A stretch of DNA of 50,600 bases from Candidatus Poseidoniaceae archaeon (GTDB taxonomy: Archaea; Thermoplasmatota; Poseidoniia; Poseidoniales; Poseidoniaceae). The DNA lies in NCBI GenBank assembly GCA_938030705.1, contig CALHIR010000042.1:1-50600 (forward strand), written 5' to 3'. Below are positions 13,550 through 38,322 of this stretch, piece by piece. The translations under genes were made by a program, and so were the position numbers. The notes below the pieces were generated by a model. The model saw only the letters and a list, made by a program, of their open reading frames with translations. It was not told where the DNA came from and ran no database searches. Each line of letters begins with the position of its first letter. Position 1 is the first letter of the stretch.

Positions 13550-14203
13550 ATGGATTTCCTTTCGCTTTGTTTGCTCACGCTCTGGCTCTACCTGCCTGGC
13601 TTCTTGGCCAACACCTTCGCCATGATGTGGGGCAAATGGTTACCCAAGACAGGGTATGGGCCCTGGCCCATCGACGGCGGTCGCGTCATGGCCGACGGGA
13701 ACCGAATGTTGGGGGATGGAAAAACATGGAATGGACTGATCGGAGGTTCACTCACCTCCGGATTGTTGTGCATGCTCCTGGCCTCGTTGGTGAGCACAGG
13801 AGACATGACCACCGCATTTGACGAAGGGGCCACCGTGTTCGCTCACCCACTCATCGGGGCGGAAGACGCTTGGTTTGCCATCGGCGGCCCCAACGGAACC
13901 GCCTTTGTCATGGGGACCTTTCTCGGATTTGCGTGCCTTGTCGGTGATAGCACCGGTTCGTTTGTGAAACGGCGTCGAGGGCTCAAGCGAGAGGGTGAAA
14001 TTTCATCCAAAGCACCTCTCTTGGACACGCTCCCCTTTGCCATCATGGTCTTCCTTTGGGGCCAACTTTTCCTCGGCCCGTCCATACTCGCGGCCGAAGA
14101 ATTACGACTCCCGATGGTCGCTTTGGTGGTCATCACCCCTCTCCTCCACCGTTCCTTCAACCTCATCGGCTACAAGATCGGGTGGAAAGATGTCCCGTAC
14201 TGA
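13550..14203 (+). CDS. carS: CDP-2,3-bis-(O-geranylgeranyl)-sn-glycerol synthase (CDP-archaeol synthase)
   Basis: A 217-residue integral membrane enzyme of the CarS (DUF46) family. It joins CTP to the unsaturated archaetidic acid precursor, giving CDP-archaeol, the branch point to archaeal phospholipids. The family hallmark is clear: LGDGKTWNGLIGG near residues 54-66, then GDSTGSFVKRRRGLKREGE near 128-146, with about five hydrophobic helices. The length is usual for the family. A GGTGATG just upstream (about 13539) supports the ATG at 13550. This is firm evidence that the host makes ordinary archaeal isoprenoid ether lipids, which matters for interpreting the fatty-acid-synthase-like operon at 17835-28240. 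Confidence 0.93.
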   Translation: MDFLSLCLLTLWLYLPGFLANTFAMMWGKWLPKTGYGPWPIDGGRVMADGNRMLGDGKTWNGLIGGSLTSGLLCMLLASLVSTGDMTTAFDEGATVFAHPLIGAEDAWFAIGGPNGTAFVMGTFLGFACLVGDSTGSFVKRRRGLKREGEISSKAPLLDTLPFAIMVFLWGQLFLGPSILAAEELRLPMVALVVITPLLHRSFNLIGYKIGWKDVPY

Positions 14204-15722: not shown

Positions 15723-17369
15723 GTGGAACCCTCATCCTTGGTCGACGACGACGAAGAGGTCACTTCCTCAAAACGCTCAATTCACCCGGCGTGGGCCATA
15801 CCCATCGGTTTTGTTTTGTCCTTCAGCGAGATGATCATCCGATTGCTCGCCGGAAAAGGCGTGGTCGATTCCATTTGGCCGCACGCTGTTCGTTCACTCG
15901 AGTTGACAATGGCCCTGCGCAATGCCCCAGCCATGACCCTTTCCTTCATGCTCATCGTCGCCGCCTTGGCTTACGGGTTGAGGACCGTCGTCGTCGCCAA
16001 AACAGAAAAAACTGCATGGAAGGCGCTGCCCTACGGACTTATCGGCCTTCTTCTCGGGTTCATTTCGATTCACTTCATGATGAACGTGTTCTACTTGCGA
16101 GGAGCGTTTCTCCTCCTTCCCACGCTGATGGGTTGGACGCTCGCTTGCCTCCTTGTGGGGATGGAAGGGCCGCCCTCACTACGAGGCCCGGGGGAAGCCA
16201 GGGTCTCGAAAACACGAGTGCTCCATGTGGTGGGCGTGTTTTTTGCCGCATGGCTCACAATGCCTGGCATTCCAGCCGTCATCGGGTTCGCTCCCTCTCC
16301 CCCTGACGCTCCAGCGATGGGTTACGGCTCATTCCCCGGCCCTTACACCGTAGAGCAATACCGGTCACCGTATCTCATGCCCGAGGAGGTCGCCAGTGTC
16401 CAAGGCGAGCTGGAAGATGATATCGAATTCAGCGTCTACATCACGCTGCCCAATCTTCCCGAGGACCTCCCCATTAGCAGCCTACCGTTGGCTGTCCTCC
16501 TCCACGGCTTTGGCTACCCTGATGTTGATGCCTACCAAGACTGGATCAACCATCTTGCGAGCAAGGGCATGGCCGTAGCCTTCATCCAATACCCATCTGA
16601 CCTTCGCCCCGAAGGTCATGAAACCCACGAAGCGACCTATGAACGGGGCATGTCAGACTTCCTCCAGCACGTGCAACGGGACTTGGCCATTCGAGCGGCT
16701 TTGGACCATGTGGACGCCATCCTCCTTCAAACGGAACGAGAAGCCCAACTCGAGGCGCACCTCGGACAGCGGTACGTCGACCCGTCGGCGCTGTGGACCG
16801 GTGGACACAGCCTTGGCGCAGCCTACACGTTCATCACGCTGGACGATGTTCTCGAGCGTGGTTGGGGTTCACGGGCGCTCGTGGTAGCCTTGGAATCGCC
16901 CGCCAGTCGGCCAATGCAGGAAAACCTCCAACCCGATTTATCGGGGCTGCCGAACGAAACGTTGGTCCAAATTGGGGTCCCTCAAGATGATATGAGTGTC
17001 GGCATGTGCCCCGGCGCTTTCCATCAGCAACTCTTTGCATCGCTGCCCGAGGAGCGAAATCAATTGTTGGAAATCCAATCCGACCTCTACGGCTTCCCAA
17101 GACTGGTCGCAAGCCACTATCTCCAAACAGACCCCGCCCATGACACCCTCTCGGATTGGAGTTTCTACCGCCGAATGGATGCCCAGGCCGATTATGTGGT
17201 CGCCCTCGGAAGAGAAGACACCTTCACAGCGGATTGGGCGTACCAATACATGACCGACGAAACCATGCTGACGGGCATGGGTGAATGGTCGGACGGCACA
17301 CCCGTACTTCCACTCATCTGGCACGCCAACGCCATTGAGGAAGTCGCGACGTTTCGAGACTGTGTTTGA
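15723..17369 (+). CDS. Membrane-anchored alpha/beta hydrolase
   Basis: A 548-residue protein starting at GTG 15723, supported by an AGGTGAT box about seven bases upstream. Residues 1-200 contain about five hydrophobic helices (for example FVLSFSEMIIRLLAG and GLIGLLLGFISIHFMM). The rest is an alpha/beta hydrolase domain with an oxyanion HGFG strand-turn (near 263) and the nucleophile elbow GGHSLGAAY (Ser near 363). A late His, in SHYLQ or the C-terminal HANA, could complete the triad. The fold is shared with lipases, chlorophyllase-like and polyester hydrolases; the substrate cannot be told. The active domain is probably extracytoplasmic. It is 45 bases downstream of the M28 peptidase and may share its transcript. 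Confidence 0.8.
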   Translation: MEPSSLVDDDEEVTSSKRSIHPAWAIPIGFVLSFSEMIIRLLAGKGVVDSIWPHAVRSLELTMALRNAPAMTLSFMLIVAALAYGLRTVVVAKTEKTAWKALPYGLIGLLLGFISIHFMMNVFYLRGAFLLLPTLMGWTLACLLVGMEGPPSLRGPGEARVSKTRVLHVVGVFFAAWLTMPGIPAVIGFAPSPPDAPAMGYGSFPGPYTVEQYRSPYLMPEEVASVQGELEDDIEFSVYITLPNLPEDLPISSLPLAVLLHGFGYPDVDAYQDWINHLASKGMAVAFIQYPSDLRPEGHETHEATYERGMSDFLQHVQRDLAIRAALDHVDAILLQTEREAQLEAHLGQRYVDPSALWTGGHSLGAAYTFITLDDVLERGWGSRALVVALESPASRPMQENLQPDLSGLPNETLVQIGVPQDDMSVGMCPGAFHQQLFASLPEERNQLLEIQSDLYGFPRLVASHYLQTDPAHDTLSDWSFYRRMDAQADYVVALGREDTFTADWAYQYMTDETMLTGMGEWSDGTPVLPLIWHANAIEEVATFRDCV

Positions 17370-17834: not shown

Positions 17835-18590
17835 TCAGGCCCCTTTCCGTTGAGTCTTGCAACCAACCCCCCAATCCGGTTGGGCCTTCATCGCCGCTCG
17901 CGTTCTCTCAAGAAGCAAGTCTTCGGGGGAGGATTCAGAAGGCGGCGAGGGCGTCGTAGCAAGCGAAAGGTGATACCCTTTCTCACTCCAATATTGCAAT
18001 TGAATTTTTGATTTTTCAATTGAAATTTCTTCCAAACTGCTTCCAATTGGAATTTCAATATCCCTCGGGTTGAGATGCATCCCCACCCCGAGCGATTTTT
18101 GCACCGCTTCCTTTCCAGTCCATGCCTGAAACACGTGCGTTGGCTCAGCCCGGAGGGACGCCAATTCCTCGCCCCTGGCCATCATGTCAATGGCGTTCTC
18201 CGCAAGCGTCCGCCCCAAAGGCTCAGCATCGAGCCCCACTTGATGTGAAGCCGGGGAAAGCGCAACAAACGCCATCCCTTCGCTGTGGGATATGGAAATA
18301 TTTGGGAGTGGCGTCCGCTTCCAAACACCTTGGATGAAACGTACGGAAGGCGCCCTGAACTGGTCCCGATGAACCTCGATAACCGAGAGATCACTCACAC
18401 CCCAAGCCAACAAACCCTCGCCCAGGAGGCGTCGGCCACTGAGGTGTTCTTGACGACGTTTCTCCGTGACAAAGGTATCGACCTCGGCCGCCTGTGCGAG
18501 CGGGACGTCAGAGAGTGACCATGACCCGACGGGCATGGCCACGACCTGAACACCAACATCATGAGGGGGCGTGAGCTGTTCAAACCCCAA
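17835..18590 (-). CDS. Sfp-type 4'-phosphopantetheinyl transferase
   Basis: A 251-residue enzyme that moves the phosphopantetheine arm of CoA onto acyl carrier domains. The two-domain Sfp signature is present: ISHSEG (about 100-105), VGLDAEPLG with metal-binding Asp121 and Glu123, and FQAWTGKEAVQKSLG (Lys160, Glu161). It is the last gene of the fabI-synthase-PPTase operon and lies 17 bases after the synthase stop codon, so the obvious partners are the synthase's ACPs. The start is uncertain: the TTG at 18590 keeps the first beta strand (VGVQVVAMPV), and the ATG at 18536 is an alternative that removes 18 residues. Archaea commonly lack this enzyme, so acquisition from bacteria together with the synthase is likely. 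Confidence 0.9.
   Translation of the reverse strand: MGFEQLTPPHDVGVQVVAMPVGSWSLSDVPLAQAAEVDTFVTEKRRQEHLSGRRLLGEGLLAWGVSDLSVIEVHRDQFRAPSVRFIQGVWKRTPLPNISISHSEGMAFVALSPASHQVGLDAEPLGRTLAENAIDMMARGEELASLRAEPTHVFQAWTGKEAVQKSLGVGMHLNPRDIEIPIGSSLEEISIEKSKIQLQYWSEKGYHLSLATTPSPPSESSPEDLLLERTRAAMKAQPDWGVGCKTQRKGA
17997..18052. repeat. AT-rich island with two perfect palindromes inside the PPTase gene
   Basis: Within the GC-rich coding sequence lies a strongly AT-rich patch. CAATTGAA (17997-18004) and TTCAATTG (18015-18022) form a perfect 8-bp inverted repeat with a 10-base loop. TTCCAATTGGAA (18041-18052) is a perfect 12-bp palindrome. The patch encodes an Ile/Glu/Ser/Lys-rich segment of the transferase (near residues 180-205). 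Confidence 0.6.
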
Positions 18591-18607
18591 TCCACCACAA
18601 CCCTTGG

Positions 18608-21600
18608 TTATCGTTCAAGTGAAAACCGTTGGCCCTCTTCAACCGTGGCCATGGCCTTGAGTTGAAGCCCTTTGAGAGCCATGACCGGTGCATCGTCTTC
18701 GCCGACGATGAGCACATCGTGAACCGTGATGCCGTCATCGAGGGCATCCATTTGCACGCTGCGCAGTCGAAGCGTCTCATCGGCGTCCGGGACACGGAGC
18801 ATGGTTGACCACTTGATGCCCACTGGTAAGCTGCTGTAGCCAAGCAATTCCATCGCCGCCAAACCTGCGTTTTGGAAACCTGCTTCAATCAGCATGGGAA
18901 GGGCTTCGAGCAGAACCTTTTCGCCTTCTGCTTCCAACAAGAACTGGTCGGTTGCTGGAAGTTGGTGGCGCATCAAGGCCAGACCGTCAATGCCCTTACG
19001 GTCGCCTTCACCAACTCCTCGGAGTACACCGCCGTGGGATTGGAAGCGGGGCCCGTGGAAATACCGTCCATAGATGAACGAAGCAGGGTGAAGCACTTCG
19101 CCATGAGGCGGGGTGCCAATGGTGGGCAATTCATCGACTTCACGCTGCAAGAAAGGACAGAGGTCTTCGCACTTCTCGACGAGGCGGACAATGGCCGTAT
19201 GGTGTTCGCGCTCCCCGAAAACTTCGCCTTTTGAATTTGCTAAATCCGATACTAAACGGCATCGCACCCATGTCATGTCGCCATCGGTGCGGTCCACATC
19301 AGCCTCAATACGAACCCTCATCGGGCCCTTCAAGAGTTTGACAGGCAACCCGAAACTGACCTCTTCGAAGCCGGCCAAACAGGTCGACGGGCGCAGCAGA
19401 AGCGAGGATTGGGCAAACATCTCCAGAGCCATAACGCCGGGATGGTAAGGCACGCCCTCAATCGCGTGGTCCACCAGGAAGGGGTGGTCTTGGGTCGAGA
19501 GGGTCGTTTGCGTCACCAAATGCTGGCTTTCTTCGAAGGACACCACCTTGTCGATAAAGGGGAAACGCATGGGGTCGGCGATGGTGGCCGCCATGCTCGC
19601 TGGCAACTTCATGGGAGCCTCCCTGAAGGAAGCAAAGCGGTCCATCAAGCCCAACGAACCGCAACCGAGAACGCGACGTTTGCCGCCCTGAAGGGCTTCC
19701 GCTACGAAGAGAGCAACGCCATCTTCAACCGCAAGGGTTTCGATGCCAGCGGCTTCAAAGACGGCTTCGATTGAACCACGCGTGGCCATACCTACGTCTC
19801 GCCATCCAGTCCAACCAATGGCGACAGCACGGCAAGTGGTGGTTGCTGTTAAGCGGGCCATCTCAGCATCCAACACCGAATTGGCTGCGGCATAATCCGT
19901 CTGACCACCGTTGCCAAACCGGCCTGCAACGCTGGTGAAGCAGCAAGCGAAATCAGGCACATCCCGGCCTGAGGCATGAACGGCCGACATCAGGGCTCGC
20001 CACCCGTCGATCTTGACACGCACGACGCGGTCAAAGACATCGTAGGCCTTGTCGGCGACCAGTTTTGAATCCTCTAAGCCGGCACCGTGAACAACGCCCG
20101 TGATGGGGCGCCCGAGTGAAGCCCCGAGGCTTGCTAGCCCCTCGCTGTCCATCACGTCAATCGAGTGATATGAAGCGTAGTTGCCCGTTTTTGAGATGGC
20201 GTCCAGCGTAAGATAGACATCTCGGCTTCTTGTGAAGCGCTGCCAGGCTTGGTTCCACTCGACCATGGTAACCTTCCCCTTCTCGCTGGCTCCGATGAGG
20301 CGCTCTCGCAAGGCGTTCTTCTCGTCGGTCAGTTGGTCTTCACTCCAATCAATCCACGCTGCAGTGGATTCAATCAGCACCGACCGACCAAGTAACTCGA
20401 AATGAGCACCGGCTTTCGGACTTGCTCGAGCGACCCCGAGAATGGAGGCCGCTGTGACGCCCGAGCCTCCGCCTGAAACCAGCCATGTATCGTCAGCCGT
20501 CAGCGGGCGCACCTCGTCCACGACATTTTCTGCAAAAGCGACCAAGGCCCAACGACGGCCGTCCCGGTCCAGCCCGATTTCAACTTCACCATCAAGTTCG
20601 AAGAGGTCGTTTTCGATGCGTCCTGCCGCATCGGTCGCATCAAGCACGAAGTCGGGGTGAAGGTCCAACGCACGACAGCGCAGGTCGGGTCGCTCAAAGG
20701 CGAAGGATTTGGTGACCCCGCTGGCAGCGCACTGAAGGGCGTTGAAGCGATCTCCTTTGTTCCCATGACGGCCGTCAAGGGCAGATACCGAAGCGATGAA
20801 ACCGGGTGAATCGATTGGAATTCGGCCACTCAATTCCTTGAGCAAACCGAACCACCCGTGGGCGGCGAGAGCGATTTGTGAGGAGGGGTAAGCGTCTTCC
20901 GCCCACTGCTCAGAAGCCAGTTTCATCGGCGCCATGTGAACCAACCCTGCGAGTTGGACTTCACGGAGTTGAGTAGCGATCCAAGCCAAATGCTCGGGTT
21001 GTTCGGGATCGGCTCGGAACACCGTTCGCCCGCCCTCGTCTTGACTGGAAGCGTCTCGAATCCGACTTTCAAACCCGATCCGTACCGCTTGCAGGCCGCG
21101 AGCCTCCATGCGTTGACAAAAGGCTTCGGCAATGCCCCATCCGTCATCGGACACGACCACCGTTCCGTGAGGCTGGAGAGCAGAAGGAACGCCCGGACAA
21201 CCTTCAATTTCTACTTGCCAACGTCTCGTCCCCTCATGAGATACAGAGGAGGAGGCTGTTGCCGCCACCTCAGATACAGGCATTTCTGGTTCTGAAACGG
21301 GCGTTGGTCCGGCAGCGCCGCCGCCTCGCATTTTCACGATGTAGGAAGTGAAATGATTCAACGTTGGATGGTCGGCGAGAACGAAATCTTCGTCCACGGG
21401 CAGCGAGAAACGGTCCCTGATTTCGGCCATAATCTCCGCTTGCTTGACCGTGTCAATGCCCAATTCACCCTCAAGGTCTTGGTCCATTTCAATGAAATCG
21501 GCAGGATAGCCGGTGTGGTCCACCACCACGGAGATCAACACGCTTTCAATGTCAGGATGAGCCTCGTCCAAAGAAGAAGCAGTTAGCGCTGGTTGAGAGG

Positions 21601-24600
21601 GTGTTGCGGGGGCGGGTGCTGCTGGGACGGGTTGTGGAAGAGACGCCGGCTCAGGGACGGAAGATGCTGCAGCAGGCGCCCCACCTTGCATGCGTTGGAT
21701 GTAGCCAATCATGTGGTTCAAGGTTGGATGGTCTGCGAGGACAAAGTCCTCGTCGATGGGGAGACTGAACTTGTCGCGTATATCCGCCATAATCTCCGCT
21801 TGCTTCACCGTGTCAATTCCCAACTCGCCCTCAAGGTCTTGGTCAAGTTCAATGAAGTCAGCAGGGTAGCCAGTGTGTTCAACCACCACGGCCACGACCG
21901 TAGCGGTCATGGCAGCGTCATCCACCGGAGCCTCAGGAACAGGTGCCACTTGCGTAGGAGCCGGTTCGGGGGTTGGCAATGCCGTATCGGTTGCAGGAGG
22001 AGTGGGCGGTGGTGCGACGGGTGAGGGCGGTGCAGCACCTGTCATCTGTTGGATGTAGCCGATCATGTGGTTCAGCGTGGGATAATCTGCAAGAACGAAA
22101 TCCTCGTCCACTGGGAGGCCAAACCGGTCACGAATGTCCGCCATAATCTCGGCTTGTTTGACCGTATCGATGCCCAATTCGCCCTCGAGGTCTTGGTCAA
22201 GTTCGACGAAATCTGCAGGATAACCGGTGTGGTTTACCACGACCTCGATGACCGTGGCGACCATGCCTTCATCCTCAACCACGGGCGCTGCAGCCCTGGG
22301 CGTCGCCTCCATGGTGGCAGAAGGCGTGGGTTCAACCTCTGGCGGGGAAGTGGGGGGTGCTGGCGCTGGAGGTGAGGCTGCTGGGGCTGAAGCGACCGAC
22401 GGCTTACCTTCCCAGGGGGAGGTGATGGGCCAGGGCTCACCCTGAATGCCACCGTGGAGGTTGTTTTCGCCATCAACATAGGCCACGAGTTTGTTTTGGA
22501 GGACACGCATCACGACATCGTCGGTTCCGGCGAGCCCTCGTGCCCAAGCCAGCAGGCGACCGCCATCAATACGCTCACCTTCAACAGGCCACCTTCGCAT
22601 CAAGGAAAGGGCGATTTGAGAGCCAAAACCGGCCGCAAAACGCAAACCGTATTCCAACTCAGGATAGTCGCCTCCCTTTGAAAGGTTGAGATCACCCAAT
22701 TCAGGGTCCTTCTCTTTGTGATTGGCGATGGGGGGTATCCGTCGAGTTTTCAAGCCATAGAACATGCTGGCATCTTCAATACCGACCGCCATTGGGTGGC
22801 CGGTGAAACCTTTCGTATTGGCGATGACCAGTTTGTTGGTGGAGTCGCCAAAGGTTTCCTTTAGGGCCTTGACCTCGGACTGAGCCGAACCACCACGTGC
22901 CGGCGTGTAGGTTTCATGGGAGAAGAAGACGGTGCTGGGTGCCATAGCGTGCCGGTCCAGCCCCCACCGTCGTTCCATGTCCGTGATGAAGCCGTTGACC
23001 ACTTGACCCACGTGTTCCACATCAAGACGCGTGCCGTGATAGGCGGAATTGGCCGTGGTAGAGCCGAGGAATTCTGCGATGGGTTGCACGCCGCGCTGTT
23101 GGGCTTCTGAGTTGCGCTCAACGACAAAGGCGGCGGCGCCCATACCCAAAATCAGCCCGTTACGACGTCGGTCAAAGGGAAGGGCCGTCTCTTCAACGAC
23201 GTTGTTGGTCGCGGCGGCACCGGAAGCGGCGAAGCCACCAGCAATCCATTCCCAAAGGTCGTCGCCGGTCACATCATCCGCGCTGATGATGACCACTCGG
23301 TCAACGCGTCCTGCGTCCAGCCAATCCTCAGCGACGCCAAAGGCGGCGGTTGCAGAGGCACAGGCGAGGTTGATGGTGGTGTTTGGTCCACGAATACCGG
23401 TGTATTGCGCAAATTGAGAATGACCCATGTTCAGCGTCTGGAACAGGTAGCGTCGGTCAAATCGACCCTCGCCATCATCCCCGTTGTTCTTGGCGTGCTT
23501 GGAAGCCATCTGAAGTCCTGGGAAACAAGAGGAGAAGACAATGCCCGTACGCTCTCGTTGAATTTGGGGGACCTGCCAGTTTCGAATCAAACGAAGCCCA
23601 CCCTTGCCGATTTGTTCAACCGGCGTCAAGGGGATGCCGGCATCCCGGAGAGCCAGAAGGCCAGCGGCCACAGCGAGTTGGGTGCTGATGTCCCAAGCCA
23701 CGATGGCTTTGGGGTCAATGCCAAATTCTTCGGCGAGGTCAAAGGCGCCCTTGAGCCCTGCGAGTTGCGGTATATCCCCGAAGACGGTGGCTTGGTCCAT
23801 GTTTACCGAGCCGTCTCGACCCTTGATGAGGCGGACGATGTTCTTGTCCAACAGGCGCTGCTTGTATTCGTCGGATACCTCGCTGATACAGGTCTCTCCT
23901 CGAACCAATTTCTCGAATGTATCTTCGGAAAAGACCCGGTCCATTCCGGGCAAACCAAGCGAAACACCGGTGACCACGTAGGGGTCAACATCCCGTTGGC
24001 TAACCGGTTGAAGTTTTGAGACCGTTTGAACTGGAGACACTTTGAGGCTTGGTGGCGCTGAAATCGAGGTCATGGGCGACCATGAGGCGGGTGCCGCTCG
24101 TACCCAGCGGGCGAGTTCGCCGGCCGTCACCGCCGAAGCCCCGTCAAATTCGGGGTCGGTCTGCGCTTCAGAAGCGATGGTGGCGACCACGCGCTGAACT
24201 TGGTCGGGCGTGAGGCCCAGACCCGTCGTGAGAACAACATGACCGTGACAGAACGAAGCAGGATAGCCGCTGAAAGCTGCGATTCGGTCACCAACATAGG
24301 CTTTGATGGCACGGTCCCGAGCATAATCCGAATCCATAGGCCCGCTATGTGCAGCGACGACAGAAGGAACGGTGGAGGTTGTGTTCCCTGCGCTACCGGG
24401 AAGCGGTCGGGCTCGTGTCCGGAGGGATTCCAAGGCTGCTGTGGAGGTTGATGAGGAGACGGGGGTGGAAGAGCGGGCTTCAATGGGCCCCGCTTTGAAC
24501 GCATCTTGAAGTTCATCGGAATCAAGCCCAGGCCATGACGGTGGGCGCCCTGCGAGCGCCAAGGCACCGATGGCGGTCATGAAACTGGCAATACCGCCCT

Positions 24601-27439
24601 GCTTGGGGTGATTGGTCATGATCGGAACATGCGGTTGCCCCTCAAGGATCTGCATAGCAAACATGGTCAAAGCACGCTTCGGGCCCACCTCGACGAACAA
24701 GCGGCCTCCGGCAGCGTACATCGTTTCGATCTGTTTGGTCCACTCCACCGACGAGGCCATTTGTGGTGCGAGTTTTTCCAAAATCGCCACTTTAGAATCC
24801 TCGCCCTCTACAGGATAGAACATGCCGTCAACGTTGGCCGTAATGGGGACATCCGGCCACCGAATTTCCAATCCTTCCAAGAATCGTCGAAGGGGTTCGT
24901 TGGCCGGAGCGACGATACGCGAATGGAAAGCGTGGGAAGTTGCGAGCGCCACGCAGGAGAACCCTTGTTCCTCAAACATGGCCATGGCCGCCTTGACAGG
25001 TTCGGTCTCCCCGGCGATGACGGTCATCTTAGGCGAGTTCTTATTGGCGGCAATCACGTACCCATCGGTCGCTTCAAGGACCGCTTCAACCGCTTCGTAG
25101 GGTGCGGTGACACTGGCCATCAAGCCTTTGTCATCAATTTCAACGGCGCCCATTTCCGTTCCACGGGCAGCCGCTGCCCGTAGAGCGCCATCCATGTCCA
25201 AAATGCCCGAGGACATCAGAGCGGCGTATTCGCCCAGTGAATGCCCGGCGACCATGTCCGGCGTGTGCCCGTAGGATTGGAGTGTACGTTCGATGGCAAG
25301 GTCAGCGGTCAACATCGCAGGCTGCGTGTATTCCGTCTGCTTGAGTTTGTGCTCCGCCTCCTTCAGTTCCTCTTTGGAGAGGGATGACCGCAAAACAAAG
25401 CCAGAGAGCGTCTCGCCTCCCAACACATCGACCATGGTTTCATCGGCTTGTTCCCAGACCTTTGCTGGAGCCGTGAAGCGCTGCACAAGATCTGCGGTCA
25501 TGCCCACGTATTGACTCCCTTGGCCGGGGTACATGTGAACCGCTTTGGCCTTGGGCGACATCGCAGGCTGGTCGGTCACCATAACGCCTTGTGCCTGCAA
25601 AAAGCCCCACTTTTCCCTGTCCATCATGGCCTGCCCAGCCAGCGTTTGACGCTTGGCAAACTCGGCCCAGGAAGTCGCCACCAACGCCAAACGAGTCGGC
25701 TTGGTGGCGTCGTAGGCTTGACTGGCGGTTTGGAGAGCCTCTGACAAACGCCGGCCCTTTGGGTCATCATCAAACAGTGGCCCCTCAAAGACCACGCCGC
25801 CCAATTGTGCCTGAAGGGCTTCGAGAGAATCATCGGAAAGCAGCAAAACACCGCCTTCAACCGCCTTCATCGCTTCGTGCGACATGGTGGCGGGCAGGGA
25901 GGAGTCGAAGATGGAAGGGGCCTCGGCGTGTGCCTGCCCGCTGTAGGCAGCATAGCGAGCATCCCAGTCGGAGGCCAACGGAGCGTGGTAATCCGGTTCA
26001 TAGCCCTCAAGGGCGATATGGAAGTTGGTCCCACCAAACCCGAAGGCTGAGACGCCGGCACGACGTGGATGGGATTCGGGCCGGGGCCATTCGAGAGGCC
26101 CCGTCGGCACGAAAAACGGAATGTTGGACCAGTCAACGGTTGGATTGGGCGTTTCAAAATTCGCACTAGGTGGAATGGTTCGGTGGTGCAGGGCCATGAC
26201 CGATTTCATGATCCCGGCGATGCCTGCAGCCGCTTTGAGGTGCCCAATTTGGGATTTGATTGAGCCGACGGCTACGTTTCCAGTGCCTTCAACCCCCGTC
26301 CACAATCTGGAGAGGGTGGAAAGTTCCGTAGCGTCCCCAACCTTGGTTGATGTACCGTGGGCTTCGACCAGTTCAACGGAGGAAGCTGGGTAGCCTGCTT
26401 GGCTATAAGCCCGGGCAATGGCTTGAATTTGCCCACGTTGACTGGGAGCCGTGATGCCTTTTCCTCGGCCGTCGGATGACCCTCCAATGCCACGGATGAC
26501 ACTGTAGATTTCATCATCATCCCGAATGGCGTCGCTGAGTCGCTTCAACACCAAGACGCCCGCTCCCTCGCCCATGACAAAGCCGTTGGCGCGGGCATCA
26601 AAGGGAGAGGAATGGGTTGGTGAAAGGGCCCCGATGGCCGAAAACTTCGCGAAGGTCGCAGGGTCCATCGTTCGGTCAGCAGCTCCTGCGAGCATGACGT
26701 CAACTTGGCGAGTTTGAAGCAAACGACACGCATCGAGAACGGCGGCCATCGACGAGGCGCAGGCAGCGTCCATCGCGTGATTGGGCCCTTGCAAATCGAG
26801 CAGGTTGGCCACACGCCCAGAGACGACATTCGCCAATTCGCCGGGCATGGTGTCTTCGTCTACTCGGGGCGTTCCTTCCAGCACCGCTTCGGTAAACCCG
26901 TCAGCACTGGCCTCAGGAAGGCCGTGTTGTTTGGCCAGGGCAGTGGTGTGATTGGACCACACTCGAATGTTCGACATGTTCCGATTCTCGCCACCGAGGG
27001 CGTTGGCGAAGACCACGCCGGTTCTGGTGCGATCGATGTCGTTGCCCTCACCGTCATATCCGGCGTGTTCGATGGCGTCAGCTGAAACCGAGACCGCCCA
27101 CAACTGACAGGGATCGATTTGAGGGAGTGTCCCCGGAGGTTGGCGCCAACGTCGCCAGTCAAACTCGGCACCGGTGACCAAGGCTCCGATTTTTGCATAG
27201 GTGTAGCCTTCCGTGTGTTCGCCCGGGCCTCCTTCTTTCCAGAAGTGATGGATTGGACCTGGCCACCGGCCCTCTGGCAACGGGGCGATACTGACCTTTG
27301 CGTCGAGGATGTTCTGCCAAAAGGCGTCAATGTCGGGGGCGTCAGGCATTAAGGCCCCCAAACCAATGACGGCAATGGGCTCGAAGGGCCCTTGTTCAAT
27401 CCCTTCGCAGGGTTTGCCGTCTGCTGTGGTCAACGTCAT
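18608..27439 (-). CDS. Multidomain iterative fatty acid/PUFA-type synthase: KS-AT-(psi-ACP)-KS-ACP-ACP-ACP-KR-DH
   Basis: A 2,943-residue type I synthase that would extend an acyl chain on carrier domains with malonyl units. KS1 has the full triad Cys227 (DAACASS), His361 (EAHGTST), His400 (IGHLK). The AT (about 635-940) has GHSLGE with Ser734 and HAFH at 836-839, the pattern of malonyl-specific domains. A degenerate ACP-like segment lies near 1040-1110. KS2 (about 1154-1640) has Cys1360 (NLACASAT), His1508 (in SHETYTP instead of an HGT motif) and His1548 (GFTGHPM). Three ACPs carry GIDTVKQAE with Thr1759, Thr1877 and Thr1997. The KR has GGGSG near 2323 and Tyr2516 (YAAAN). The DH has His2652 (DHPFLVDH) and Glu2852. 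Order resembles PfaA with an extra KS inserted. ATG 27439 follows an AGGTG site nine bases after fabI. The product is unknown; no thioesterase domain is seen. Confidence 0.93.
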   Translation of the reverse strand: MTLTTADGKPCEGIEQGPFEPIAVIGLGALMPDAPDIDAFWQNILDAKVSIAPLPEGRWPGPIHHFWKEGGPGEHTEGYTYAKIGALVTGAEFDWRRWRQPPGTLPQIDPCQLWAVSVSADAIEHAGYDGEGNDIDRTRTGVVFANALGGENRNMSNIRVWSNHTTALAKQHGLPEASADGFTEAVLEGTPRVDEDTMPGELANVVSGRVANLLDLQGPNHAMDAACASSMAAVLDACRLLQTRQVDVMLAGAADRTMDPATFAKFSAIGALSPTHSSPFDARANGFVMGEGAGVLVLKRLSDAIRDDDEIYSVIRGIGGSSDGRGKGITAPSQRGQIQAIARAYSQAGYPASSVELVEAHGTSTKVGDATELSTLSRLWTGVEGTGNVAVGSIKSQIGHLKAAAGIAGIMKSVMALHHRTIPPSANFETPNPTVDWSNIPFFVPTGPLEWPRPESHPRRAGVSAFGFGGTNFHIALEGYEPDYHAPLASDWDARYAAYSGQAHAEAPSIFDSSLPATMSHEAMKAVEGGVLLLSDDSLEALQAQLGGVVFEGPLFDDDPKGRRLSEALQTASQAYDATKPTRLALVATSWAEFAKRQTLAGQAMMDREKWGFLQAQGVMVTDQPAMSPKAKAVHMYPGQGSQYVGMTADLVQRFTAPAKVWEQADETMVDVLGGETLSGFVLRSSLSKEELKEAEHKLKQTEYTQPAMLTADLAIERTLQSYGHTPDMVAGHSLGEYAALMSSGILDMDGALRAAAARGTEMGAVEIDDKGLMASVTAPYEAVEAVLEATDGYVIAANKNSPKMTVIAGETEPVKAAMAMFEEQGFSCVALATSHAFHSRIVAPANEPLRRFLEGLEIRWPDVPITANVDGMFYPVEGEDSKVAILEKLAPQMASSVEWTKQIETMYAAGGRLFVEVGPKRALTMFAMQILEGQPHVPIMTNHPKQGGIASFMTAIGALALAGRPPSWPGLDSDELQDAFKAGPIEARSSTPVSSSTSTAALESLRTRARPLPGSAGNTTSTVPSVVAAHSGPMDSDYARDRAIKAYVGDRIAAFSGYPASFCHGHVVLTTGLGLTPDQVQRVVATIASEAQTDPEFDGASAVTAGELARWVRAAPASWSPMTSISAPPSLKVSPVQTVSKLQPVSQRDVDPYVVTGVSLGLPGMDRVFSEDTFEKLVRGETCISEVSDEYKQRLLDKNIVRLIKGRDGSVNMDQATVFGDIPQLAGLKGAFDLAEEFGIDPKAIVAWDISTQLAVAAGLLALRDAGIPLTPVEQIGKGGLRLIRNWQVPQIQRERTGIVFSSCFPGLQMASKHAKNNGDDGEGRFDRRYLFQTLNMGHSQFAQYTGIRGPNTTINLACASATAAFGVAEDWLDAGRVDRVVIISADDVTGDDLWEWIAGGFAASGAAATNNVVEETALPFDRRRNGLILGMGAAAFVVERNSEAQQRGVQPIAEFLGSTTANSAYHGTRLDVEHVGQVVNGFITDMERRWGLDRHAMAPSTVFFSHETYTPARGGSAQSEVKALKETFGDSTNKLVIANTKGFTGHPMAVGIEDASMFYGLKTRRIPPIANHKEKDPELGDLNLSKGGDYPELEYGLRFAAGFGSQIALSLMRRWPVEGERIDGGRLLAWARGLAGTDDVVMRVLQNKLVAYVDGENNLHGGIQGEPWPITSPWEGKPSVASAPAASPPAPAPPTSPPEVEPTPSATMEATPRAAAPVVEDEGMVATVIEVVVNHTGYPADFVELDQDLEGELGIDTVKQAEIMADIRDRFGLPVDEDFVLADYPTLNHMIGYIQQMTGAAPPSPVAPPPTPPATDTALPTPEPAPTQVAPVPEAPVDDAAMTATVVAVVVEHTGYPADFIELDQDLEGELGIDTVKQAEIMADIRDKFSLPIDEDFVLADHPTLNHMIGYIQRMQGGAPAAASSVPEPASLPQPVPAAPAPATPSQPALTASSLDEAHPDIESVLISVVVDHTGYPADFIEMDQDLEGELGIDTVKQAEIMAEIRDRFSLPVDEDFVLADHPTLNHFTSYIVKMRGGGAAGPTPVSEPEMPVSEVAATASSSVSHEGTRRWQVEIEGCPGVPSALQPHGTVVVSDDGWGIAEAFCQRMEARGLQAVRIGFESRIRDASSQDEGGRTVFRADPEQPEHLAWIATQLREVQLAGLVHMAPMKLASEQWAEDAYPSSQIALAAHGWFGLLKELSGRIPIDSPGFIASVSALDGRHGNKGDRFNALQCAASGVTKSFAFERPDLRCRALDLHPDFVLDATDAAGRIENDLFELDGEVEIGLDRDGRRWALVAFAENVVDEVRPLTADDTWLVSGGGSGVTAASILGVARASPKAGAHFELLGRSVLIESTAAWIDWSEDQLTDEKNALRERLIGASEKGKVTMVEWNQAWQRFTRSRDVYLTLDAISKTGNYASYHSIDVMDSEGLASLGASLGRPITGVVHGAGLEDSKLVADKAYDVFDRVVRVKIDGWRALMSAVHASGRDVPDFACCFTSVAGRFGNGGQTDYAAANSVLDAEMARLTATTTCRAVAIGWTGWRDVGMATRGSIEAVFEAAGIETLAVEDGVALFVAEALQGGKRRVLGCGSLGLMDRFASFREAPMKLPASMAATIADPMRFPFIDKVVSFEESQHLVTQTTLSTQDHPFLVDHAIEGVPYHPGVMALEMFAQSSLLLRPSTCLAGFEEVSFGLPVKLLKGPMRVRIEADVDRTDGDMTWVRCRLVSDLANSKGEVFGEREHHTAIVRLVEKCEDLCPFLQREVDELPTIGTPPHGEVLHPASFIYGRYFHGPRFQSHGGVLRGVGEGDRKGIDGLALMRHQLPATDQFLLEAEGEKVLLEALPMLIEAGFQNAGLAAMELLGYSSLPVGIKWSTMLRVPDADETLRLRSVQMDALDDGITVHDVLIVGEDDAPVMALKGLQLKAMATVEEGQRFSLER
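21350..22297 (-). repeat. Three tandem ACP domains separated by Pro/Ala linkers
   Basis: Three homologous segments of about 80 codons repeat at spacings of 354 and 360 bases, judged from the Thr codons at 22165, 21811 and 21451 (first base on the minus strand). They share HTGYPADF, ELDQDLEGELGID or EMDQDLEGELGID, and VDEDFVLAD or IDEDFVLAD. They are joined by Pro/Ala-rich linkers typical of flexible carrier-domain tethers. The high similarity suggests duplication or ongoing homogenisation. Confidence 0.9.
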
Positions 27440-27448
27440 AGGGACACC

Positions 27449-28240
27449 TCAATTCATGATGCTCTCGGGCACCATCGTAATGGAATACCCAGCGTCCACG
27501 TAAACGCACTGGCCCGTAACGCCGGCTGAAAGTGGGCTGGCGAGCCAAAGCGTTGCGCCAGCTACATCGGCTTGACTCACGTTTCTCCGAAGGGGGGCGT
27601 TCGCCTCAACGTGGTCCAAAATCCGGTCAAAACCGGGGATTCCGCTGGCGGCGATGGTGCGGATGGGGCCCGATGAAATGGCGTTGACTCGGTGGCCTTC
27701 GGGGCCAAGGTGGCACGCCAGTTCTCGCGTCCAGCATTCAAGGGCGGCTTTGGCCATTGACATGATGCCGTAACTGGGCACGAATCGGTTGGACGCAGCG
27801 TAGGTCAAGGTGATGGTCGACGAGCCCGAATTGAGGTAGGGCAGGGCGTGCTTGAGGCACCGTTGAAGTGAATTTGCCGAGATGGTCATGGCGGTGTTGA
27901 TATCGTCGTCCTCCACGAACAGAATGGGCCGGTCAAAGCACGAACGGGGAGCGAATCCAATGGCGTGGACCAAAATGTCGGCTTTTTTCCCCGGGTGCTC
28001 GGCAGCAAAGGCCGTGAAGAATTCCTGCGTGGCGCTATCGGAGGCGACATCGAGTGGATAGAAACCACCGATGGCTGGCAGCTCATCCTTGAGTTTGAAC
28101 ACACGGCTCATGAAGCGCTTTTGGTATCCCAAATACAAGGTGACACCAGCGGCTGCCAATTGCTTACAAATCGCCCATGCAATGGAGTCCTCACTGGCGA
28201 CACCAAACACAAAGGCCGTTTTACCTTCCAGTCCAAGCAT
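27449..28240 (-). CDS. fabI: Enoyl-ACP reductase (FabI type)
   Basis: A 263-residue short-chain dehydrogenase-fold enzyme that reduces the trans-2 double bond of enoyl-ACP with NAD(P)H. The FabI signature is clear: a nucleotide-binding start KTAFVFGVASEDSIAWAI, an AIGFAP strand (HAIGFAPRS), LTYAAS, and the catalytic Tyr-x6-Lys in YGIMSMAKAALE. C-terminal GVTGQCVYVDAGYSI is the usual ending. The length is standard. ATG 28240 has a strong AGGAGGG upstream. It is the first gene of the operon and ends nine bases before the synthase, which has KR and DH but no enoyl reductase domain, so it supplies the missing step in trans. Two dyads lie upstream at 28262-28314. Confidence 0.93.
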   Translation of the reverse strand: MLGLEGKTAFVFGVASEDSIAWAICKQLAAAGVTLYLGYQKRFMSRVFKLKDELPAIGGFYPLDVASDSATQEFFTAFAAEHPGKKADILVHAIGFAPRSCFDRPILFVEDDDINTAMTISANSLQRCLKHALPYLNSGSSTITLTYAASNRFVPSYGIMSMAKAALECWTRELACHLGPEGHRVNAISSGPIRTIAASGIPGFDRILDHVEANAPLRRNVSQADVAGATLWLASPLSAGVTGQCVYVDAGYSITMVPESIMN

Positions 28241-30414: not shown

Positions 30415-30957
30415 TCAAATTCGGTCGACGAAAAAGCCCCTGTCGCCGAACACCCCGTTCCAATACACCGCGGCCATCGCCACCATGTTGGGGTGGCGGG
30501 CGTCCGCCACGATGCATTTGCCATTGGGCCATATCTGGACGGTCAAACTGTGCCGTGTGTCCGTCAAGGTGGTGCAACCAAGCCGGGCATCAAATTCAGC
30601 CGTTCCCGAAGGGAGGCTGGCTGGAATGGCCTCCAAATTGAGGGCTCGATCGAATTGGAACGAGACCACGACCGGCCCCATTTCTGCGACCAGCCCGCTA
30701 TCATCCATGCCCATGCGAAGCAAGAGTTCCTTGGCGGCAGCTCGGGCGGCTTCGATGCGGTGGGTGCCGTGGACGACAATGCGGCCTTCCTCGTCGATGA
30801 CCAAGGTCGCCCGAGGGCGCTCCATGGCCTTGATGACGACGCCGCTGTTGCGTTGGCCACCCACTTCTGCGACGACCGTGTCATGGTCCAGGGGGCGTGG
30901 ACAGACGAAACGAACCAGTTGGTTTTCGACGCGGACGTCAATGGAACCGGTGGCCAT
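30415..30957 (-). CDS. Divergent TATA-box-binding-protein-like protein
   Basis: A 180-residue protein with the two-repeat saddle layout of TBP. Repeat 1 has GVVIKAMERPRATLVIDEEG and VVHGTHRIEAARAAAKEL. Repeat 2 has EFDARLG, LTVQIWPNGKCIVADARH and AVYWNGVF. These align with the TBP pattern of a Pro-Lys turn, an LIF strand, SGK and a helix of Ala-rich repeats. The length matches archaeal TBPs (about 180). Two of the four DNA-intercalating Phe positions are lost in repeat 1 and one is Trp in repeat 2, so canonical TATA binding is doubtful. It ends nine bases before the TatD-like gene and starts one base after the hypothetical upstream gene. It may be a specialised paralogue or a non-DNA-binding relative. 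Confidence 0.65.
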   Translation of the reverse strand: MATGSIDVRVENQLVRFVCPRPLDHDTVVAEVGGQRNSGVVIKAMERPRATLVIDEEGRIVVHGTHRIEAARAAAKELLLRMGMDDSGLVAEMGPVVVSFQFDRALNLEAIPASLPSGTAEFDARLGCTTLTDTRHSLTVQIWPNGKCIVADARHPNMVAMAAVYWNGVFGDRGFFVDRI

Positions 30958-31771: not shown

Positions 31772-34700
31772 TCACTGGTTGTTGACCCAGTCTTGAAGGG
31801 ATTCGATGTTCCATCCTTGGTCAAAGTAGCCTTGGATTTCCTCTTGCGTCCATTGCGGGAAGGTCTGCATGGCCCGAGCCATTTCCGGGTCGACATCGGC
31901 AGGGATTTCAGCGAGTACCTTGCTTTCGGTGTAGCCGAGGTCGTCGTCATCGTCCTCGTACTCTTCATCGAGCAGAGAGGCACCACCGCCCCGACGGGCG
32001 AGCACCAGAACCAGGGTTCCAAGAACACCGATCACCAGCACCAAAATGGCGACAATGAGCAGCAAGTTACCCGAATCTTCCTCGGCCTGAACCTTGACGT
32101 TGAACACGTCCGCCCATGGGTCCTGAGAACCGTCGTAGATGTTCTCGCTGGTCCCGTTCAGGCTGATGGTGTAGTACATGCCCGTGGTCTGAGCGGCAAA
32201 CGGTGCGAGGGTGACTTCGACCCAATCGCTCACTTCCTGAATCTCCAGTACGGGCGTGGAGACCGTATCTTCAACAACGGGCGTTCCGCTGTCGGTGACC
32301 GACTTGATGACCAACTCGGCCACGCCGGCCATGGAACCGGTGTTCTTGACCTTGATTTTGAGTTTCATGCTCTCGCCAACACGTGGGTCATCGCTGAGCA
32401 GTACGTCCTGAATCTCAAAGGTCGCTTTCTCCTCAATGAAGGTGTATTGCGACTTGTGCTGCGCTTGTCCGGAGAAGATGGGCAAAATGGAGCCGTCTTC
32501 CTGCGGGCCGCCACCCAGTCGGACCGTCGATCCAGCAGAGTCAGCTCCGGAAACCCAGAACACCAAGGTGGGTTGTTGTTGTTCATTCACCTCAGCGTCA
32601 AACACACGAGGCTCGGCGTTTGAGAGTGGCCAGAGGTCCAAACAGGTCGCTGAAGCGAGGTATCCATTGCTCACCTCTTTGGAAGACAAAGAGAGGGCAG
32701 CCGAGGACGGTTCGAAGCCGAAATACTCGGCGTATTCAGACCAAGGCGTGTAGTCGATGGTGTTGCTGTAGAACATCCAGTTCACCCGGAGGTCTCCGGG
32801 GAATATCGCTTCTTGCTCCTTGATTTGGAGTTGAAGGTCCACGCAGTGGTAGTTGGCCGTAGACAGCGTGTTCTTGATGATTCGGCCATCGGTGCCCTCG
32901 GGCAACTCACCGTCCTCAGCAAGCCAAGTGTTGGGAAGGACTTCGGGAGCCGTTCGGTCCACTTTGAGGGTGAATTCACCGCATCCGTAAGAGGATGAAG
33001 TAGCGCACAAGGCCGCCGTGTAGTCTTCGGCTCCATCTGGCATGGCGTAGCCGTAATTGGTTGGGTCATCGCAGGGTTCCTCGTCCACCTCAGAAACAGG
33101 AGGGCACAAACGGAATTCATACTGGTATTCGTTGGTGAAGACCGGTGCGGTGATGTTGATTTCAAAGACGCCGCCCGTGAACGAATGGTAAACCGTTTCG
33201 CCGGGTGTTGCAATGTAGCCCTTGTCGAAGTCTTCTGCTGCATCTTGACGAACAATTTCCATCGTCAATTCGATTTCGGGATTGATGTAAACGCTGTCGT
33301 AAATACCCTCTCGGAAGGCGAACTGGCCGGTGAACTGAACGGTGTCGCCAGCGAAAATGAAGCCCTGACGAACATCGCTGGTGAAGGGCTCGCTCACGTC
33401 TTCGAACATTGGAGTAACCATCAGATTGTTGACCTCGTCGGTCCGGAAATCAAGTTGCATGATGTCGCTGTAGCGCCAAATTTGGATGTAGCGACCGGGG
33501 ACACCCGAAAGCATCGTGTAAAGCGGGTTGTCAAGGTCTTGCATTTGCAGTTTGGGCTCAATGTCCTTGCCGTCCATACCGACAATACCCCAATCAATAC
33601 GGATGGGGATGTTGAGGATGAAATCCGATTCAAACGGATCGATAAGGTCCGTGTTGTCCATGGTGAGCATGGATGGGGCGACGTCACCGTCATAGACGAT
33701 GTTGAGGTAAGGGCTGTCGGTCCAAGCGGTTTGGTTTCGAGGGAAATACCAGATGGTCATGTCATCCCCGGTCTTGTCAAGGTTGATCTGGAAGAAGTCA
33801 ACGTCTCGCCAGCCGTTGTCGTCGCTGGCTTCGAGAAGAAGGTGGTAGGTGTTGCCAGCATACATGGTTTGGTTCCACGTACCGTCCCACTGCAATTCAT
33901 TGGAGTTGAGGAACGGGTTACCCTTGGAATCTTCAATGAAGAAATTACGAATCACCGGGCTCTTCGACGACATGGACACGTAGCTGACCTGGTCGTTGTC
34001 AAATCCGGGACCGCCGCCATCGATGGGGTTGCCCGCAAGGTCGTAGCCTTCAATCCAAATTGACACCTTGCCTTCGAGGCCTTCATTGGCGATGTCGTTG
34101 TACTGGCCTGAATAATTGGCCGTTGGGGCCTCACCGTCGCCGTTGAGCGTGACGGTGATGTATTCGTCAGCATCGGGAAGGCCGTCGCTGTTCAGGTCGT
34201 GGTCGTGTTCAACCCAAAGGTGCATGTCCAAGGTCGCCGGTGGGCTGGGTAAGTCTTGGCTGGACATACGGATTTGTTGATTGGCTTGAGGCACGACCCA
34301 GGTGTCATCAAGGAGCGTTCGCCAGTTCGAATCGACGTTTGAGTCCGTGCCCGGGCTCAAGACCTGCAGGTCCAAAAGATTCGGTTCGTAGGTATCGATG
34401 GTGATGTCGAACGGAATGGCGCAGGTCTCGTCGGGATTGTACTCAACAGGAGGGCAAAGCAGGTCGCCACCTTCGTAGCCTCGGACAGCGAAGCGGTAGG
34501 TCTCGCTACCCGCTGCGTCGCCCAAATTGACGTTCCAAGCGAAGTCGCCGCCAATGACACCGGAGCGATTGGCAACTTCTTCCCATTCAATGGTAATGTT
34601 GCCGTCCGTGGTGTTGACGTGTTTCAGTTCGAGGGTGAGGAAGTACGAGCTCGGGTCAGGGGCTTCGTTCAGGTCCTCAAGGCGAATTTGGCCGATGAGG

Positions 34701-37720: not shown

Positions 37721-37818
37721 GGTGTCACCTGCACATCGGCGAGGGTTTACCCCCCTAAAATCTCGTCGCTTACTGGACTCGGTCCCTTTTTCCACTTCAT
37801 TTCCTGAACCGAGTGAAC

Positions 37819-38322
37819 ATGAGTTATGAGGGTGAACCTTGTGGACAGGCCATGGAGCCATATTCCACCGAACCCGTCACCCTCATTGAAGAGGTGTTTC
37901 CTCAGGATACCAACGCCTACAATACCCTGTTTGGGGGAAGGTTGCTGTCGCTGATGGACAAAGCAGGTGGCATTGCGTGCGCTAAATTCGCTCACCGAGA
38001 ATTTGTCACAATTTCCATTGATACCTTGACCTTCATTGCTCCTGCACGGCAAGGCGATCTGCTGGAAGTTACCGGCCAAGTCGTCTACACCAGCAGCCGC
38101 ACAGCGTGCACCAAGGTGACCGCTTACACCATGAGCAAAGCAACATGGGAAAAGAGCATCATCTGCGAGGGTTACTTCTTCTTTGTCGCCATCGATTCCA
38201 ATATGCAGGCCATACCAATCCCACAATTTACGCCCGAAACCGATGAGGAAAAGGAAGAATGGGAGAAGGCAAAAGCCATCCGGGATAACATGCTTGCTCA
38301 GAAGGCGAAGCGGGACGCTTGA
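37819..38322 (+). CDS. Acyl-CoA thioesterase, hotdog fold (YciA/BACH-like)
   Basis: A 167-residue single-hotdog thioesterase that hydrolyses acyl-CoA to free acid and CoA. The family signature is clear: FPQDTNAYNTLFGGRLLSLMDKAGGIAC, containing the catalytic Asn/Asp region and GG turn, then a THD-like strand (ISIDTLTFIAPARQGD). The C-terminal region is charged (EEWEKAKAIRDN). Start choice is uncertain: GTG 37813, ATG 37819 and ATG 37852 are all in frame, and the last matches the family's usual N-terminus best. It is divergent from the giant surface protein, sharing about 98 bases of upstream DNA. It could release or recycle products related to the synthase operon, but that is inference. Confidence 0.9.
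   Translation: MSYEGEPCGQAMEPYSTEPVTLIEEVFPQDTNAYNTLFGGRLLSLMDKAGGIACAKFAHREFVTISIDTLTFIAPARQGDLLEVTGQVVYTSSRTACTKVTAYTMSKATWEKSIICEGYFFFVAIDSNMQAIPIPQFTPETDEEKEEWEKAKAIRDNMLAQKAKRDA

Follow-up and report, generated by a model that had tools for sequence, protein, structure and literature searches.

A putative fatty-acid synthase operon with threonine-bearing carrier domains in Marine Group II archaea

What does an archaeon build with a bacterial-style chain-elongation machinery? The question is raised by three adjacent genes in a stretch of 50,600 nucleotides (the window; contig C42 of genome G000) from an archaeon of the Poseidoniales (Marine Group II, MGII) close to Poseidonia, whose genome comprises 2.0 Mb in 63 contigs and is 90% complete. 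The operon lies on the minus strand and starts with a FabI-type enoyl-acyl carrier protein (ACP) reductase of 263 amino acids (27449-28240), followed by a synthase of 2943 amino acids (18608-27439) and, as last gene, a phosphopantetheinyl transferase (PPTase) of the Sfp/ACPS superfamily with 251 amino acids (17835-18590). The intergenic gaps are 9 and 17 bases; these open reading frames (ORFs) are as an earlier reading of the DNA letters (hereafter the sequence-only reading) had given them, and CarS, which it had also reported for the host, is encoded in the same window at 13550-14203. The three proteins are likely to form a self-contained iterative type I fatty-acid synthase (FAS) that would make a saturated fatty acyl chain. 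No description of the operon was found in the open-access literature, and its recognition makes fatty-acid building by these archaea testable.

Enzymes and carrier domains

The domain order of the synthase, ketosynthase (KS) 1, acyltransferase (AT), KS2, ACP1, ACP2, ACP3, ketoreductase (KR) and dehydratase (DH), was derived from the ORF list, Pfam, NCBIfam and alignment. The Pfam matches comprise KS (PF00109 in two stretches, and PF02801), AT, three PP-binding stretches, KR and PKS_DH_N. All domains lie on the minus strand, and their active sites were read in an alignment of 49 full-length synthases, that of the window included (40 from Poseidoniales and 9 others). The residues kept are the Cys-His-His of KS1 (26000-27382; C227, H361 and H400; Pfam and alignment), the Ser-His of the AT (24641-25540; S734 in GHSLGE and H839 in HAFH; Pfam and alignment), the Cys-His-His of KS2 (22580-23947, residues ~1165-1620; C1360, H1508 and H1548), the Tyr and Asn of the KR region (19760-20902; Y2516 and N2520; the Pfam match spans residues 2409-2548 and the outer limits are estimated) and the His of a polyketide synthase (PKS)-type double-hotdog DH (18611-19582; H2658, with E2852 at the second catalytic position; Pfam and structure model). 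Unread residues (X), one at KS2 H1548 and one at DH E2852, are confined to rows from Poseidoniales. KS2 has its Cys and first His in 49/49 synthases and its second His in 48/49, with one X, and the proposal that it is an inactive chain-length factor (CLF) is unsupported, the catalytic triad being kept.

The gene upstream of the synthase matches enoyl-ACP reductase in Pfam (adh_short_C2) and has the FabI-like Tyr-x6-Lys, at Y157; its best NCBIfam models are FabI, with scores below their equivalog cut-offs. The PPTase matches ACPS (PF01648, E 2e-9) and holds both GxDxE and WxxKE, which among 14 aligned PPTases are found in 14/14 and 13/14, respectively (that of locus L148 is without the Lys; L, G and g denote loci, genomes and genera throughout). 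The structure model of the DH (predicted local distance difference test, pLDDT, 77.8; predicted template modelling score, pTM, 0.83) gave as top Foldseek match the whole PKS PsoA (E 1.9e-14), followed by the dehydratase domains of GphF, CurJ and CurF (E 3e-13 to 6e-13); the matches listed are PKS synthases and dehydratases, plus one FAS.

From the loading of malonyl through to the reduction of the enoyl group, each step thus has its gene in one operon, with active-site residues kept, and we infer the following route. The PPTase would load phosphopantetheine on the tandem ACPs, most likely on threonine; the AT would load malonyl units, which KS1 and/or KS2 would condense; KR and DH would act in cis, and FabI would reduce the enoyl intermediate in trans to give a saturated fatty acyl chain, probably released by a separate acyltransferase through transfer to an acceptor. 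Saturation is predicted from the complete set of reducing enzymes, FabI being part of the operon, and from the PKS type of the DH. Two residues depart from the usual ones: a Thr at the ACP site and a Glu in the DH.

The carrier domains, recognised by motif and hidden Markov model (HMM), lie at 22043-22276 (ACP1, Thr1759), 21698-21910 (ACP2, Thr1877) and 21335-21556 (ACP3, Thr1997), each with the motif LGIDTVKQAE, which puts threonine at the phosphopantetheine site. PfaA-type and E. coli ACPs use serine there. The sequence-only reading had credited the operon with ACP activation: the three ACPs and the PPTase stand, and the exchange of Ser for Thr had been overlooked. Of 277 carrier domains of the family, 266 have Thr and 9 have Ser at this site, the other 2 being unread, and no further residue occurs; the set results from 283 de-duplicated domains, from which two canonical synthases of bacteria that served as references (L157 and L158, with 6 Ser ACPs between them) were removed, and some genomes are still counted in it both as a G entry and as a named locus. 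The Ser sites belong to genera g5, g12 and g19 and, in L143, to the first ACP only, the remaining three of that protein carrying Thr. On the synthase tree, a quick one with long branches flagged, the Thr/Ser exchange took at least three changes with L143 scored as its own state, and Thr is also found at the ACP site of a bacterial relative from Nonomuraea (L156). Because the site is limited to two hydroxyl residues that were exchanged more than once while, within this order, the PPTase stayed adjacent, Thr is, judging from these sequences, most likely the residue of phosphopantetheine attachment. No paper on a natural Thr carrier was recognised in searches of the open-access literature; if these carriers work, they would offer a natural test of a supposedly invariant rule, phosphopantetheine on serine.

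The same replacement could mean that the ACPs stay unmodified on Thr and that the carriers are dead or the synthase non-functional. This is improbable: it would account for Thr in all three ACPs of the window and agrees with a suppression test in which, according to the accessible text, E. coli AcpP S36T could not stand in for the wild type (PMC9456370), but the site is Thr or Ser wherever readable, with at least three changes on the tree and both residues in one protein (L143), while the other active sites and the PPTase motifs are kept. As a separate observation, the AT-KS2 linker contains at residues ~1045-1090 (inside 24020-24307, minus strand) a degenerate carrier-like stretch of 2.2 bits only, with no Ser/Thr site.

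Distribution and inheritance

The synthase was matched in 131 of 193 related genomes (109/115 of the host family, f1, and 22/78 of the second Poseidoniales family, f2; f3 designates the outgroup), so that absence from relatives, named by the sequence-only reading as a refutation, was not borne out. A scan of public genomes found it in at least 75 loci, labelled Poseidonia, Poseidoniaceae, Poseidoniales, Euryarchaeota, euryarchaeote or Thermoplasmatota. FabI in the same orientation accompanies it in 57/58 and a PPTase in 54/54 named loci with enough flank, mostly with gaps of <20 bases or with overlaps of mechanically called starts. An apparent fusion of FabI and synthase (a 3211-amino-acid ORF in L012/L057) was rejected, since nothing but a stretch of unread bases connects the two. 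On the FabI side the neighbours are TatD (55/56 loci), a gene with similarity to TATA-binding protein (TBP; 55/56) and a gene for 267 amino acids (u267; 54/54).

That bacterial-type enzymes on an archaeal contig of a 63-contig genome might reflect bacterial contamination or an assembly chimera, the other refutation set beforehand, is extremely improbable. The same operon stands beside TatD, the TBP-like gene and u267 in many separate assemblies, among them the 2.06-Mb single-contig genome G039 (CM001443.1), and its GC content of 57-59% is inside the 52-63% of the window. Contamination was therefore rejected on distribution and on the neighbours conserved across genomes.

The corresponding empty site was read at the TatD locus of 10 synthase-less genomes of the second family, where the order is u267, TBP-like gene, TatD, ~390-460 bases and a gene for ~630 amino acids (seen in 8/10; it is not shown on the contigs of L200 and L205, and no TBP-like match was called in L198). 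Between TatD and this ~630-amino-acid gene L151 has FabI, synthase and PPTase, and L149 has the operon with one extra 282-amino-acid ORF downstream of the PPTase gene. The flanking genes of L149 and L151 share 61-62% identity with each other and 58-75% with those of the others. A different gene follows the PPTase in the synthase-bearing L146, L147 and L152. In genus g12 (G115, L202) the TatD site is empty and the operon lies on another contig. The tree of neighbour genes unites the synthase-less second-family genera and the synthase-bearing g12 in one clade (100/100), and presence/absence changes three times in all, with the f3 outgroup counted. Since these genera form a single clade, the trees point to about one main loss, with a possible relocation or regain. 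In L152, of the f1 genus g5, the synthase groups with f2 genera (99) and the neighbours with f1 (95/96), a disagreement that suggests one transfer of the synthase inside the order.

Co-occurrence was scored in 52 genomes, 27 with and 25 without the synthase. A FabI orthologue (63-100% identity) is present in 27/27 and 0/25, respectively, and a PPTase according to Pfam in 24/27 and 0/25; the misses are G022, with a truncated PPTase, G115, with a divergent one (26% identity) beside the synthase, and G129. A second, weaker PPTase match of G056 lies on another contig. A few fragmented genomes have their PPTase and most of the synthase on separate contigs. KS, ACP, PfaD and PlsY were searched in 34 of the 52 genomes (22 with and 12 without synthase). 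Carrier-protein matches appear in 21/22 and 0/12 (the miss, G118, is a gene split over contigs); these and the full KS matches lie in the operon synthase, G036 excepted. Short PF00109 matches of 18.9-30.1 bits, mostly on frames of ~400 amino acids, are probably thiolases. G036 (genus g8) encodes an extra large KS/ACP protein (a 2356-amino-acid frame, G036:C24:10576-17202) and a further KS at C15:6278-7018. Gene order, empty site and co-inheritance agree in supporting the earlier proposal that the operon acts as a unit.

Product and fate of the chain

The sequence-only reading had placed a fatty-acid or polyunsaturated fatty acid (PUFA) synthase in an archaeon. Its first part, a near-complete machinery of bacterial style, is upheld by the genes, their conservation and the exclusion of a chimera; a polyunsaturated product is unlikely on the tests described here. 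A PUFA (Pfa) synthase with lost or dispersed partners is suggested by the best NCBIfam match of the synthase, TIGR02813 (PfaA), by the tandem ACPs and by KS1, which branches among Pfa-like KS domains (clade support 80), and the window shares with PfaABCDE the order KS-AT-ACPn-KR and a PPTase in the cluster. The TIGR02813 score is, however, 845.4 bits against a cut-off of 1010; PfaD exceeds its cut-off in 0/34 genomes (18.9 bits at best); all full-length KS matches in G000, at 90% completeness, are in the operon synthase, leaving no KS protein of the PfaB or PfaC type; and the ACPs carry Thr. The DH is PKS-type with only PKS_DH_N found, while Pfa clusters, in the accessible description, carry a DH/isomerase in PfaC (PMC3098273). 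On cut-off, PfaD, KS and DH the PUFA synthase was rejected, and it retains only a slight probability; the earlier statement that PfaB, PfaC and PfaD homologues are missing agrees with these searches.

KS tree and synthase tree were both quick. The KS tree has long branches flagged and supports from the Shimodaira-Hasegawa-like approximate likelihood-ratio test (SH-aLRT) only; its KS1 clade is based on few bacterial references, all from plasmid records. Left out of it were the Fusobacterium locus L177 and domain pieces of <300 amino acids, namely the CLF of L178 and N-terminal FabF pieces. KS2 forms a divergent clade of its own in this tree, distant from KS1 and FabF, with one type II KS joining the stem (91). 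KS2 is the better conserved of the two domains compared: sets of 17 loci (17/22 kept per domain), partly shared between the domains, gave identities to the window of 75-95% for KS2 and 65-77% for the DH. A structure model of KS2 was discarded at a mean pLDDT of 50.5.

The closest published layout is that of the Type R synthases, described in the portion of the article available as one protein with KS, malonyl-acyltransferase (MAT), CLF, ACP(3-6) and KR; a PPTase gene comes next, separated from it in one instance by an acetyl-CoA carboxylase gene (Shulse and Allen, 2011; PMC3098273). They were reported from Acidobacteria, Elusimicrobia and Chloroflexi, and the word archaea is absent from the main text of that article as available. 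The synthase of the window has the same succession of KS, MAT, second KS/CLF, three ACPs and KR, with the PPTase gene downstream; it differs in the fused DH, in the FabI that leads the operon and possibly in the second KS, which here keeps Cys-His-His. As far as that source allows, the operon is an archaeal variant of the Type R layout with DH and FabI added, likened by layout and not by descent. The sequence-only reading had called the order PfaA-like with an extra KS, and the order holds; the extra KS is shared with Type R, as described there (PMC3098273), and with other Thermoplasmatota.

Synthases of the same design occur elsewhere. Of the related megasynthases in other Thermoplasmatota families, 8 were read at full length and two as partial sequences; in a phylum sample of 292 genomes a broad model matched 258, mostly weakly, and 14/14 controls, so that only long, high-scoring frames were counted. 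The synthases of L136, L137, L139 and L141-L145, from such families, show KS-AT-KS-ACPn-KR-DH with mostly Thr ACPs, as in the window, and differ in frame length (3050-3798 amino acids, with mechanical starts) and in having 2-6 ACPs. Among these loci an adjacent FabI of >60 bits was found only in L136 and L137, in the latter as a domain at the end of an 840-amino-acid protein just upstream of the synthase. Thermoplasmatota genomes of the Cariaco Basin have been reported, in the part of that work available, to hold PKS clusters, some of them transcribed (PMC9902471).

The bacterial relative from Nonomuraea gerenzanensis (L156; 2555 amino acids) also has KS-AT-KS-ACP(Thr)-KR-DH, with 39.6% mean identity to the window synthase over 69% of the query (46% in KS2) and a single ACP, recognised by motif and a custom HMM, not by Pfam at 1e-5. 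Its KS1 and KS2 group with those of the synthases from the other Thermoplasmatota families (supports 90 and 82). It is followed by an acetyl-CoA carboxylase of 1821 amino acids and a 247-amino-acid ORF without Pfam match; no FabI match of >150 bits was found in its available flanks. A multidomain acetyl-CoA carboxylase likewise follows the homologous synthase in the archaeal L143, as does a biotin carboxylase in L141, and malonyl-CoA use by the synthase fits these associations. The L143 enzyme (L143:10833-17261, plus strand; 2142 amino acids) has an ACC_central region, and we take its layout to be eukaryote-like. The window itself encodes an AccC-like biotin carboxylase 13.6 kb from the operon, below NCBIfam cut-offs; it is no special evidence, because operon-less genomes keep such a gene too.

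Less probable, though the strongest of the alternatives weighed, is that the product is no general fatty acid but a specialised chain, such as the tail of a glycolipid, pigment or signal, made by a polyketide or secondary-lipid synthase. The Type R synthases of bacteria, which share the layout, were assigned in the accessible text to the secondary-lipid synthases with the product unnamed (PMC3098273), the operon is dispensable in a clade of the second family, and KS2 represents a KS type of its own that is strongly conserved. Against this, FabI and the full KR-DH-enoyl reductase set point to full reduction, and presence in 109/115 host-family genomes, mostly at one chromosomal site, resembles a core metabolic function more closely than it does a secondary cluster of variable occurrence.

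Several points weigh against the operon as a fatty-acid synthase. PKS dehydratases carry Asp at the second DH catalytic position, where all readable rows of the 49 synthases have Glu. The Pfam scan detected no thioesterase domain in the synthase. The presence/absence counts are not independent, since they go back to about one main loss, that of a single clade, and co-occurrence as many independent events was rejected, the synthase-less f2 genera lying in one clade. To these the S36T result is added, as well as the lipids of MGII-rich water, in which the source, in its available part, reports no unusual abundant intact polar lipids and no abundant lipids that would fit a mixed type (PMC6962369).

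For the question of what MGII membranes are made of, the operon would provide a tangible source of fatty acyl chains that can be expressed, with the operon-less clade as a natural control. In the accessible parts of the respective studies, no enzyme for the glycerol-1-phosphate (G1P) backbone was found in 270 MGII genomes, but glycerol-3-phosphate (G3P) dehydrogenase was reported from every genus except one (PMC6461757); other archaeal lipid genes are kept (PMC6461757, PMC6962369); and common glycerol dialkyl glycerol tetraethers (GDGTs) have been linked to MGII (PMC7291766). Rinke et al. and Tully et al., as far as available, emphasised fatty-acid degradation in MGII. A putative fatty-acid pathway with PlsC has already been reported for MGII (PMC6962369), which softens the statement of the sequence-only reading that archaea are usually described as lacking a fatty-acid synthase.

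PlsC-family acyltransferases (PF01553) occur in 52/52 genomes and PlsY in 0/34. Copy numbers are at least 3 in 22/27 genomes with synthase and at most 2 in 22/22 synthase-less f2 genomes, but 3 in two of three f3 genomes. PlsC was rejected as a marker of the synthase, which only a 533-amino-acid paralogue tracks (G000:C29:9205-10803, corresponding to L166:4203-5804, minus strand). Its orthologues, full-length or split (37-100% identity), are found in 23/27 genomes with and 0/25 without synthase, the latter having only remote paralogues of 86 bits at most. It is missing in G036, G060, G115 and G129 and is thus not obligatory, and its co-occurrence is subject to the same single-clade caveat. Its H-x5-D and FPEG motifs presumably recall yeast-type glycerol-3-phosphate acyltransferases (GPATs). 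The co-occurring acyltransferase hints at esterification of the chain. That fatty acids made de novo on Thr-ACPs via the dedicated PPTase are esterified to G3P by co-inherited PlsC-like acyltransferases, so that these archaea, abundant in the surface ocean, would cross the lipid divide with bacterial-like or mixed membranes, is a tentative extension and on balance doubtful. An entire clade has lost the operon, which speaks against a membrane function that cannot be dispensed with, short of fatty-acid scavenging by its members.

Neighbouring genes in the window

Upstream of the operon, a protein of 2029 amino acids (31772-37861, minus strand) has no Pfam or NCBIfam match. BLASTP found relatives at the same place in the synthase-bearing L146, L147, L149, L151, L154 and L155, and none in the 12 loci L194-L205 (10 synthase-less f2, one g12 and one f3) or in the synthase-bearing L152. 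Convergent with the PPTase gene, a 548-amino-acid protein (15723-17369, plus strand) has a hydrophobic N-terminal part, a GHSLG hydrolase-like motif and no Pfam match; it was found in 30/49 loci with room and is a candidate thioesterase or lipase. The constant TBP-like neighbour of the operon is, in the window, a protein of 180 amino acids with a TBP domain match (30415-30957, minus strand). At 49303-50322 (minus strand) a cytidylyltransferase-like domain is fused to DUF359, which we take to be GTP-dependent dephospho-CoA kinase, a possible fusion for CoA biosynthesis.

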